Below are positions 58,603 to 61,127 of a DNA stretch of 64,000 nucleotides, piece after piece. The notes beneath the pieces were generated by a model. It saw only the letters and a program-made list of their open reading frames with translations, had not been told where the DNA came from and made no database searches. Made by a program: the position numbers and the translations under genes. Numbering within the stretch: the stretch's first letter is position 1; every line of letters begins with the position of its first letter. Source of the stretch: Opitutia bacterium (GTDB lineage: Bacteria > Verrucomicrobiota > Verrucomicrobiia > Opitutales > Opitutaceae); NCBI GenBank assembly GCA_016187945.1, contig JACPIT010000003.1, forward strand, positions 1 to 64,000, read 5' to 3'.

Positions 58603-58830
58603 GGGCGCAGCGGTAGTCGTGCAGGTGACGACTTGCCGTGTAGATCGGCGAGAGGGAGATGCGTTGCGGGAGGCGTCGGTCGTCAGCTCGGCCGATGCTG
58701 CGATGGCACCCTCGATCTCGGCCGCGGAATATGCGGCGAGTTGAAAGAGCAATGGGTCGCGAGTGGGCGGCTGGCTCGCGGCGGCACACCACACCGCCGC
58801 CGCGAGCGGCAACAACCGATGACCAAAATA
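58603..58830 (-). pseudogene. Decayed 5' duplicate of the FGE-like secreted protein gene
   Basis: Translated on the minus strand, the remnant reads LLPLAAAVWCAAASQPPTRD then PLLFQLAAYSAAEIEGAIAA, SAELTTDASRN. It matches the intact protein's N-terminus: LLLLAATVSSVAASPPPTRD, ELLDRLAAYSDGEIAEAIAA, LTELTTDASGN. The match continues at DNA level for about 60 more bases (ACCTGCACGACTACCGCTGC against GGCACGACCACCGTGCAG) but with shifts of frame. The rest of the gene is missing. It is a partial, inactivated copy or the remains of a paralogue, in the same orientation and immediately downstream of the intact gene. Confidence 0.8.
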
Positions 58831-58870
58831 AAGTTCTTTGCCGGACGAGTGACGTGAGAATGCGACCGCG

Positions 58871-60247
58871 TCAGCGGCGGCGTTGCGCCAAGGCGCGACC
58901 GGCGATCGCGGCGGCGAATGCGAGTGCGGCCCAGGGTGTCGGACCGCCGCCACCGCCGCTGGCACTCGAGCTGCCGGTCGTCGATGTGCCGGTCGTGGTG
59001 GTGGTCGTCGTGGTCGATGTGCCGGATGAAGTGCCGCTCGTCGCGGTCGTGCCAGCGGCGCCGGTCGTGGTATCGCTCGCGACGGCAGTGGAAAAGTTTC
59101 TCACGACGCGGAAGCCGACCGTGTTGAACGCGCCGGAGGCCGAGCGGCCTTCGCCGATGTCGATGCTGCGGCCGCTCGTGCCATTGGCATACCAGGAGCC
59201 GCCACGGACTTGGTTCACGCTTTGGCCAGCTTCGGCGCCGTTGCTGGCAGTGCTCACGGTGGTGGTCCATTCGAAGACGTTTCCGGCCATGTCGTGGCAG
59301 CCGTAGGCGCTCTTGCTGGCGGGATACGCTCCGACGGCGCTGGTGTTGCCGCCGGTGCTCATGATCGTGTCGAAGAGGCTTGTGTAGATGAAACCGGTGT
59401 AGGTGTCGTGGTTCACCCAGCCGGAGACGCTGCCGCTGCTGTTGATGGAAAAATACGTCGCGCTGCCGCTGGTATCGTAGGCGGCGATGCGGCTCACCGT
59501 GGTGCTTTGGCCATAGTAGGACGACGCGGCGTTCGTGTAGCTGACGGCGAGGGTGGGAGAATTATAGAGATAGTAAGCCGCAGTGACGCCGTTGTAGTTG
59601 AACTTCGTGATGAGCGCGCCGGTTGAAGAATTGTAGCTCGCGTCGAGCGTGTTGCTCCACGGGTAGAGATTTCCGCTCGGGCCGCGCGCGGCTTTTTCCC
59701 ACTGGTAGGCGGTGGGCACGGTGATGCTCCAGCCGGTTTGCGCGCTGACCCACGCGCAGTAGGCGAGTGCGCTGTTGAGCGAGACGTAGAGCACCGGGTG
59801 GTTGGCCTTGCCGGCGGGATAGGTGCCGGCGCTCCAGTGCGCGGGATAAGTTTTGAGGCTGTTTGCGTCGAGGTAGGCCTTCCACTCGGCGTTGGTGACT
59901 TCGTAGCGGCCGATGCAGAACGCGTCGAGCGTCACGCTGGCGGCCGACGAGCCGTTGCCATACGTGAAGCTCCCTGCCGGCACGTAGATCATGTTCGTCG
60001 GCACCTGCACGGTGGTCGTGCCGTCGACGACGGCGTAGGTGGTGGTGTCGGCCGGGTGGGGGATGACGTTGCCGGAGGCGTCGGTCGTGAGCTCCGTCAG
60101 CGCCGCGATGGCTTCGGCGATTTCGCCGTCCGAATACGCGGCGAGTCGGTCGAGCAACTCGTCGCGTGTGGGCGGCGGGCTCGCGGCGACGGACGATACC
60201 GTCGCCGCGAGCAGCAACAACCCTGCGACCAAACGAAAAGCTTTCAT
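58871..60247 (-). CDS. Secreted formylglycine-generating-enzyme-like (SUMF1) protein with C-terminal anchor
   Basis: A 458-residue exported protein (signal MKAFRLVAGLLLLAATVSSV, AAS cleavage). After an unknown N-terminal segment comes an FGE/SUMF1-type domain: YVPAGSFTYGNGSSAASVTL, IGRYEVTNAEWKAYL, VPTAYQWEKAARGPSGNLYP, MAGNVFEWTTTVS, QVRGGSWYANGTSG and FRVVRNF. Such domains modify sulfatase Cys or act as binding/C-type-lectin-like folds; whether the active Cys pair is present is not clear. The C-terminus is a Thr/Ser/Gly linker, then GGGGGPTPWAALAF, a hydrophobic stretch and ALAQRRR. This tail is nearly the same as in the next gene and looks like a sorting/anchoring signal. Confidence 0.85.
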   Translation of the reverse strand: MKAFRLVAGLLLLAATVSSVAASPPPTRDELLDRLAAYSDGEIAEAIAALTELTTDASGNVIPHPADTTTYAVVDGTTTVQVPTNMIYVPAGSFTYGNGSSAASVTLDAFCIGRYEVTNAEWKAYLDANSLKTYPAHWSAGTYPAGKANHPVLYVSLNSALAYCAWVSAQTGWSITVPTAYQWEKAARGPSGNLYPWSNTLDASYNSSTGALITKFNYNGVTAAYYLYNSPTLAVSYTNAASSYYGQSTTVSRIAAYDTSGSATYFSINSSGSVSGWVNHDTYTGFIYTSLFDTIMSTGGNTSAVGAYPASKSAYGCHDMAGNVFEWTTTVSTASNGAEAGQSVNQVRGGSWYANGTSGRSIDIGEGRSASGAFNTVGFRVVRNFSTAVASDTTTGAAGTTATSGTSSGTSTTTTTTTTGTSTTGSSSASGGGGGPTPWAALAFAAAIAGRALAQRRR

Positions 60248-60275
60248 CGGAGGTGCGAACAGTGGGGCGCGGCGC

Positions 60276-61127
60276 TCAACGTTTGCGCTTCACGGCGGCG
60301 CGGCCGGCGACTGCGGTCGCGAGCGCGAGGGCAGCCCAGAGCGTCGGGCTGCCGCCTCCTCCGCCGCTGGAGGTTCCGGTGCTCGACGTGCTCGAAGTCG
60401 TGGTGGTGGTCGTCGTTGTCGACGTGCCGGAGGTGCCGGTGGTGGTCGTCGTGCCCGACGAACTCGAGGTGGTGCTCACGTTCACGACGATCTGTTTCGC
60501 GGCGATCTCGGCGGTCGCGTTGTCGACGGAGTCGATGCCGCTGGAAACGGTGAGCGTGACGAGCGACATCGTGCCGGCGGCGACGAGCGGCGAGGCGACG
60601 CCGTCGGAGGAGAAACTCGCGCTGTCGGTCGCGAACATGAATTGCGAGGTGAGCACCGTGCTGCCGTTGATGTTCACCTTGAAATGGAAATGCCGGATGC
60701 GGCCGGTGTAGAGACCGGGGTGCACGGTGCGGAACGACCAGTTGCCCGACGAGTCGGTGACGCAGGTGCCGTAGCTTTGGAAATTCGAGTCGCGGTTCGC
60801 GGTGTTGTTGCCGGCGCTCGTGTTGTAGTAGTAGACGCCGCCGTTGTCGGCCTGCCACAGCTCGATCGTCGCACCGGAGATGGCGGTGCCGGCGGTGTTG
60901 ACGAGCGTGCCGGAGAGCAGGAAGCGCGTGCCGGACGCGCGCGTGGTTTTGCCGGTGACGAGCGTGAGGTCGTTATCGGCGCCGACGAGCCAGCTCGTAT
61001 CGAGCGTCTGGCCGGAGTTGAAGGTGTAGTAGGGGCCCTCGGTGGTCGACGGCGTGGCGTCGAGTGCGAAGGCGGTGGCGACGAGAGCGGCCCAGGCCGC
61101 CGCGAGCGTGGAGATGCGGGGGATCAT
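60276..61127 (-). CDS. Secreted intradiol ring-cleavage dioxygenase-like protein with C-terminal anchor
   Basis: A 283-residue exported protein (signal ISTLAAAWAALVATAFALDA). The intradiol dioxygenase core is readable: TEGPYYTFNSGQ, ATIELWQADNGGVYYYNTSA (a Tyr ligand region), TVHPGLYTGRIRHFHFKVNI with the second Tyr and the HxH iron ligands. It keeps all four Tyr/His ligand positions as far as I can judge. It is much shorter than catechol dioxygenases because the N-terminal dimer domain is lost, as in other secreted members. A Thr/Ser-rich linker follows, then GGGGGSPTLWAALALATAVA and GRAAVKRKR, the tail shared with 58871-60247. A PmrA-like box lies 23 bases upstream of its ATG. Confidence 0.87.
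   Translation of the reverse strand: MIPRISTLAAAWAALVATAFALDATPSTTEGPYYTFNSGQTLDTSWLVGADNDLTLVTGKTTRASGTRFLLSGTLVNTAGTAISGATIELWQADNGGVYYYNTSAGNNTANRDSNFQSYGTCVTDSSGNWSFRTVHPGLYTGRIRHFHFKVNINGSTVLTSQFMFATDSASFSSDGVASPLVAAGTMSLVTLTVSSGIDSVDNATAEIAAKQIVVNVSTTSSSSGTTTTTGTSGTSTTTTTTTTSSTSSTGTSSGGGGGSPTLWAALALATAVAGRAAVKRKR

Follow-up and report, generated by a model that had tools for sequence, protein, structure and literature searches.

A putative divergent GlyGly-CTERM-type sorting tail and its candidate rhombosortase clade in Opitutaceae

Introduction

GlyGly-CTERM tails, the targets of rhombosortases, consist of a glycine run, a helix and a basic end and occur on many unlike secreted proteins. 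In VesB of Vibrio cholerae, cleavage at the glycine and attachment of glycerophosphoethanolamine have been demonstrated (PMC6219818). PEP-CTERM signals, whose partners are exosortases (PF09721), follow the same tripartite design, and MYXO-CTERM signals (TIGR03901, TIGR03382), whose partners are myxosortases, are also built from a Gly-rich start, a helix and a basic end; according to PMC11980579, their motif contains an invariant cysteine. In this work, we describe a C-terminal tail carried by two adjacent secreted proteins, one intradiol-dioxygenase-like and one FGE-like, which are encoded in a stretch of 64,000 nucleotides from an Opitutaceae bacterium (assembly GCA_016187945.1, contig JACPIT010000003.1, positions 1 to 64,000; referred to as the window). 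Very probably, this tail is a sorting signal of a divergent GlyGly-CTERM type that is recognised by a specific rhombosortase group, named here clade B; the tail is referred to as the B tail.

The 2011 work of Haft and Varghese (PMC3237569) describes a histidine at the fourth position after the catalytic serine (Ser+4; SGMLH) in virtually all rhombosortases, and finds that the stretch starting at this serine predicts best whether a genome has GlyGly-CTERM. It also reports one GlyGly-CTERM protein adjoining its rhombosortase in Opitutus terrae PB90-1, and a rhombosortase without a target in Verrucomicrobiae bacterium DG1235, a divergent target being one possibility. This was the only paper that the open-licence literature yielded for rhombosortase or GlyGly-CTERM in Verrucomicrobi-. 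Four hidden Markov models, TIGR03501, TIGR03867, TIGR04179 and TIGR04212, are named for GlyGly-CTERM in a 2017 paper (PMC5300114).

The Tail and Its Carriers

The two window genes lie head to tail on the minus strand, as do all window features described below. The open reading frame at 60276..61127 encodes the intradiol-dioxygenase-like secreted protein of 283 amino acids (PF00775 Dioxygenase_C, E 4.5e-20), and that at 58871..60247 encodes a secreted protein of 458 amino acids with an FGE-sulfatase domain (PF03781, E 3.7e-35). A putative N-terminal signal peptide can be read by eye in both. Both proteins end in a Thr/Ser/Gly linker, five glycines, (S)PT-x-WAALA, a hydrophobic stretch and a basic end. 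In the dioxygenase-like protein, a linker of about 37 codons (60366..60476, limits set by eye) precedes the putative sorting tail GGGGGSPTLWAALALATAVAGRAAVKRKR (60279..60365); in the FGE-like protein, a linker of about 43 codons (58958..59086, limits likewise set by eye) precedes the putative sorting tail GGGGGPTPWAALAFAAAIAGRALAQRRR (58874..58957). Both tails were recognised from the sequence and from tail profile searches, and their translations from the two open reading frames read SSSASGGGGGPTPWAALAFAAAIAGRALAQRRR and GTSSGGGGGSPTLWAALALATAVAGRAAVKRKR. The initial annotation had described two adjacent secreted proteins with unrelated catalytic domains and a shared tripartite tail, and the reading frames, tails and Pfam matches (PF03781 vs PF00775) agree with that description.

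A protein search of the same genome with the dioxygenase-like protein also matched other C-termini, some of them at poor E-values. A first tail profile, built from 8 tails, gave 13 matches at E<1e-6 in this genome; ten of its 25 matches there were non-C-terminal (L033-L038, L040, L042-L044) and were not counted. Profile A2, built from 14 tails of this genome, finds 14 matches at E<=1e-5, all at protein C-termini, a count that is partly circular because A2 was built from those same tails; the matches in 57 other genomes of the family are not circular. The possibility that the tail is confined to the two window proteins, raised when the window was first annotated, can therefore be set aside. All 14 proteins end no more than 39 residues past the start of the match. 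The consensus comprises about five or more glycines, [AS]-P-[ST], any residue, a usually aromatic residue, a helix and a basic end. The glycine run has at least four residues in 13 of the 14 tails, and the remaining tail has GGSGGG.

The 14 carriers represent about ten domain types, among them four NHL proteins, and several have Ig domains ahead of the tail. In 13 further carriers or parts of carriers, Pfam found GH16, GH5, matrixin, an M12B-like peptidase, glucoamylase, four NHL-repeat proteins and YHYH; one carrier is chloroperoxidase-like below the Pfam cut-off, and another has no Pfam match. A DUF1501 protein (L041, C1:72586-72675, minus strand), which was left out of A2, carries the C-terminal variant tail GGGGGGGSPTIIGAAAIGGALLLKKIADRKARLAAERAAKHSE, in which there is no aromatic residue.

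The tails of relatives end within 40 residues of the match start in 22 of 25 cases, and one (L090) ends after 56. In two further loci (L091, G024:C1 near 2625974; L099, G069:C8 near 130970), no stop codon comes after an internal tail copy, and the frame continues through a signal-peptide-like stretch into a second secreted protein, TonB-receptor-like by eye in G069. It is possible that these are polyproteins separable by rhombosortase and signal peptidase, or that stop codons have been lost. In another relative (L086, G188:C3:181989-182081), the tail match contains one in-frame TGA, and the tailed gene may be broken or misassembled.

Co-Distribution with Rhombosortase Clade B

When the tail profile was run over this genome and its relatives and compared with membrane peptidases, as the initial annotation had proposed, the tail was found to track rhombosortase clade B. 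In a class-wide sample of 236 genomes, 23 have an enzyme over the TIGR03902 cut-off, and 11 of these 23, but no other genome, have the tail (hypergeometric p 5e-13, and 0.005 inside the family). A tree of 34 enzymes places exactly 11 members in clade B, one per tail genome, with support of 100/100. In a family sample of 250 genomes, 58 carry the tail and 133 an enzyme over the TIGR03902 cut-off, and 57 of the 58 tail genomes have a TIGR03902 match at E<=1e-20. Loci were taken from 120 of the 134 family genomes with a match at this threshold, plus six genomes of the class sample, and 158 enzymes were typed; the other 14 rhombosortase-positive family genomes were left unclassified, and all 14 are tail-negative. 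Enzyme tallies in the classified genomes refer to the matches listed, beyond which further weak enzymes may exist, and tail counts per genome are lower bounds, part of the first-look candidates having been scored.

The 65 clade B enzymes come from 64 genomes; the clade occurs in 56 of the 58 tail genomes, and in 8 of the 63 classified genomes in which the tail was not found. The 120 classified genomes divide into 56 with both tail and clade B, one with the tail only, eight with clade B only and 55 with neither; thus, the tail is linked to clade B and not to rhombosortases in general. Within genus g5, all five tail genomes have clade B, the enzymes of the four tail-negative genomes that were classified all belong to other clades, and two more tail-negative genomes are unclassified. 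The single tail genome of g4 has clade B, and its three tail-negative genomes lack it. In g6, clade B occurs in 16 of 17 tail genomes and in none of three tail-negative rhombosortase genomes. The exception to this within-genus contrast is G455. In a FastTree tree, a long branch (0.88) with local support of 0.66 leads to the 65 members, and the node that adds one row has 1.0. By patterns of our own making, a GGG-[AS]P[ST] tail lies upstream of 39 of the 65 clade B enzymes. A search of named genomes with one clade B protein returned four relatives only, two of which have a tail gene directly upstream.

The genome studied here has five rhomboid-family matches, of which two exceed the TIGR03902 cut-off of 84 bits: one on contig C1 (102 bits) and one on contig C9 (111.9 bits). 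The C1 enzyme belongs to clade B, and its open reading frame, counted from the first GTG, begins 45 nucleotides past the stop codon of a tailed matrixin. A dedicated peptidase elsewhere in the genome had been predicted from the window alone, and this rhombosortase is a candidate for it. On the other side of the matrixin, with one open reading frame between, lie genes best matching GspD, GspE and GspF, and GspK and GspI homologues are found 7-10 kb beyond them. These type II secretion-like genes (L281, at ~65.1-70.5 kb and 77.8-80.3 kb of C1, from best model matches) are all below equivalog cut-offs.

All 65 clade B rows of the alignment have the catalytic Ser and His of rhombosortases, which were counted by alignment column like the Ser+4 residue. 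They also have the WRxxS/T motif of these enzymes, with invariant W and R and with T or S at its end. Clade B stands apart from the other typed enzymes at fixed positions, with W in FGWxHF, Ala in most members directly behind the catalytic Ser, and E for K, and in a loop reading GxGGGxIxFDDPxxxVATxAH. An AlphaFold prediction for clade B from a four-row alignment had a mean pLDDT of 45.1, and the model was not used.

The B Tail as a Probable Divergent GlyGly-CTERM-Type Signal

As its probable partner is a rhombosortase by TIGR03902, the tail would be expected to function in the manner of GlyGly-CTERM, both tail and enzyme clade being divergent. By analogy with VesB, the tail would hold the protein in the inner membrane after Sec export, with the basic end inside; rhombosortase B would cleave it at its glycines, and an ethanolamine-containing lipid would be attached to the C-terminus so formed. 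Transport to the cell surface would then fall to a type II secretion system, with the Ser/Thr/Gly linker serving as a spacer. The tail is probably a surface-anchoring tag not recognised by current databases. With the GlyGly-CTERM/rhombosortase system, it shares an enzyme over the TIGR03902 cut-off, an enzyme gene adjoining a target gene, and a tail built of glycine run, helix and basic end that recurs on many unlike secreted proteins. In contrast, the B tail has [AS]P[ST]-x-aromatic past the glycine run and remains below the TIGR03501 and TIGR03867 cut-offs, and clade B has its own GGG-FDDP loop. Of the lineage-specific route suggested in the initial annotation, the CTERM-type signal with lineage-specific wording stands, while a route outside known designs does not, the probable partner being a TIGR03902 rhombosortase.

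Several observations weigh against this assignment. NCBIfam scans covered 12 distinct tails, eight from this genome and four from relatives, in 13 scans (the matrixin tail was scanned twice); TIGR03501 had no match at E<=10 among the 12, and none of them reached the TIGR03867 cut-off (best 15.6 vs 19.7 bits). The Ser+4 His is missing in 64 of the 65 clade B enzymes, 52 of which have Leu, and in all 93 other typed enzymes, so that the clade B enzyme of G269 is the only one of 158 to have it. No clade B enzyme was found in two tail genomes, G313 (68% complete) and G455 (85%, ~700 contigs), and eight clade B genomes gave no profile tail match; three of these eight (G309, G354 and G404) have a plain tail just upstream of the enzyme that the profile missed, and one more has a variant tail. 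In the upstream stretch read, 24 of the 65 clade B enzymes have no tail by our own patterns, some of these stretches being cut by contig ends, and 2 of the 65 have a differently worded tail. The p values given above are nominal and overstate independence because the genomes are related. A GspD homologue (tblastn with the GspD of this genome) lies near clade B, over ~20 kb, in just 3 of 19 genomes, namely this one and two of the three other genomes of its genus that were read (G174 and G188, not G310), and in none of 15 others; linkage to type II secretion was rejected as a general rule. Finally, cleavage, lipid attachment and surface location are steps that we infer.

The best surviving alternative, which we nevertheless regard as improbable, is that the tail stays uncleaved and, behind a flexible linker, anchors the protein in the membrane by its C-terminus, its link to clade B being indirect, through shared ancestry or lifestyle. 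A helix plus a basic end would be enough for anchoring. However, the glycine run with [AS]P[ST] is sequence-specific and conserved across carriers of unlike domain types, for at least 39 of the 65 clade B enzymes the gene immediately before that of the enzyme carries the tail, and tail and enzyme are jointly present or absent inside g4, g5 and g6, G455 excepted.

Other Known Partners and Signal Models

Handling of the tail by an exosortase, as a PEP-CTERM-like variant, is very unlikely. This genome has six exosortase genes (loci L014-L019), and exosortases are present in 56 of the 58 tail genomes. Yet they are far broader in distribution than the tail: they occur in 225 of the 250 family genomes, including 169 of the 192 without the tail (Fisher p 0.08), and, being nearly universal, they do not discriminate tail genomes. 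For this reason, exosortase was rejected as the tail partner. Moreover, the B tail has no PEP motif, and no PEP-CTERM model matched any of the 12 distinct tails at E<=10. Given the six exosortase genes, two kinds of C-terminal sorting probably exist side by side in this bacterium.

Somewhat less probable still is a MYXO-CTERM-type signal with a myxosortase as its handler. For several tails, no sorting-signal model scores better than TIGR03901, and one of the 12 distinct tails, which is one of the eight from this genome, reaches its cut-off (20.2 vs 20 bits), while the window tails score 11.9 and 17.6. Although the cysteine is reported as invariant in MYXO-CTERM (PMC11980579), it is absent from the G-run/[AS]P[ST] motif in all 14 A2 tails. 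Neither window protein matches any NCBIfam CTERM model, and TIGR04212 gave no match in scans of the window proteins and tails, in line with the earlier remark that the layout is CTERM-like and fits neither the GlyGly-CTERM nor the PEP-CTERM signal exactly. On sequence grounds, the B tail and clade B are probably a variant of rhombosortase/GlyGly-CTERM systems, with a tail that the scanned models miss.

Candidate Enzyme-Tail Pairs in Opitutaceae

While PMC3237569 tabulates two rhombosortases in one genome and one in each of 103, some genomes studied here have two or three. Their Ser+4 residue is mostly Leu in clade B, mostly Ser or Cys in clade C, and mostly Thr or Ala in the rest. Upstream tail patterns for clades A, B and C were self-made, and the A and C groups were defined by motif, not by tree. 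With these patterns, a PGYxGG tail was found before 36 of 61 A-motif enzymes, and a GG[AD][LI] tail, which is a broad pattern, before 21 of 24 C-motif enzymes. Five A-motif enzymes have a B tail in reach, and each of them stands behind a clade B enzyme in a tandem pair.

The present genome has one A pair and one B pair of enzyme and tail. Its clade A enzyme lies at C9:303818, and the upstream gene ends in IEHKPGYTGMGDLSGLFAALLALIFLGGRVALRRT; this enzyme was tallied as having no tail in the upstream count, although the ending reads PGYTGMGD. The A-type tails of three relatives, scanned as fragments, match TIGR04179 with E values of 0.0016, 0.0026 and 0.038, and one of them is also over the TIGR03501 cut-off (16.3 vs 15.5 bits). 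The rhombotarget lipoprotein system (TIGR04179) resembles the clade A enzyme of this genome with its adjacent target gene; it is unlike the B system in having one target, a PGYxGxG tail and another enzyme group. For clade C, one partner was scanned, a VIT/VWA protein. In L118 (G085:C1, ~5519457-5521574, minus strand), a clade C rhombosortase stands behind this protein, which ends in SGGGGGGALERDDV... and has no NCBIfam sorting-signal match at cut-off.

Whether several such rhombosortase-tail pairs operate side by side in Opitutaceae, each seemingly insulated from the others, is in our judgment evenly balanced. In that case, the GGGGG-[AS]PSxW tails found on many proteins would be the substrates of clade B (YxGLSA[VL][ND]LG, GGG-FDDP loop), the PGYxGGG tail of a single lipoprotein that of clade A (SG[LV]A), and the GGGGGALxxxD tail of a single VIT/VWA protein that of clade C (YRGLSG[LI]D). 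Residues around the catalytic Ser, together with the clade-specific loop, would then carry the specificity code. The B tail may also be a candidate for the type of target missing in DG1235.

Segmental Duplication in the Window

The near-identity of the two window tails is explained by one local segmental DNA duplication that includes both, and not by each protein having acquired its tail separately. Copy 1 (60048..60455, found by blastn) covers the end of the dioxygenase linker, the tail, the stop codon, the spacer and the first ~66 FGE codons; copy 2 (58645..59053) covers the end of the FGE linker, the tail, the stop codon, the spacer and a remnant of the FGE 5' end. They form one gapped blastn alignment with 304 of 418 columns identical (73%, E 7e-58), that is, a diverged direct repeat with a constant register of ~1405 bp. 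Since copy 2 is part of one repeat running into the FGE start, the DNA past the FGE stop (58645..58870) is a decayed fragment of a second FGE 5' end; its ATG is not conserved, and DNA similarity ends at ~58645. Judging from these alignments and profiles, the likeness of the two tails is not due to chance and has two causes, the direct repeat and the genome-wide tail family.

In the simplest history, a unit spanning the dioxygenase linker into the FGE body would have been duplicated in tandem, which would have joined the FGE body to a copied dioxygenase 3' end with its tail and left a broken FGE copy. The FGE-like protein thus probably gained its tail from a tandem duplication of the dioxygenase 3' end. 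The five nearest dioxygenase homologues in the family sample are 45-61% identical; four of them lack the tail at the C-terminus, which in the fifth (G407) is unreadable at an assembly gap, and the C-termini of 12 weaker homologues were left out of this comparison. At E<=1e-15, the dioxygenase was found in none of the 12 other genomes of the same genus in the family sample. Between the two copies, the nonsynonymous (dN) and synonymous (dS) divergences are 0.21 and 0.89 over the 28 codons of the tail (dN/dS near 0.24) and 0.21 and 0.44 over 51 codons of the FGE start region; both samples are small, and the pattern is consistent with a tail kept under selection. That the shared tails are merely a functionless accident of local duplication has a negligible probability, for even though one DNA repeat explains the likeness of these two, the tail is also present on a dozen more proteins here and in 57 other family genomes, which contradicts this explanation, and the copies differ with the low dN/dS ratio just given for that small sample.

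Conclusions

The window DNA shows one way for a sorting tail to spread, by the joining of a gene body to the copied tail of its neighbour. As the scanned NCBIfam models miss the B tail, 1 to 25 proteins per tail genome (14 in this one) are left without a predicted sorting route. A change of tail type goes with a change of enzyme clade close to the catalytic serine, which makes rhombosortase specificity accessible to a swap experiment. If the proposal of parallel enzyme-tail pairs is true, rhombosortases would have diversified in these bacteria as sortases have in others.

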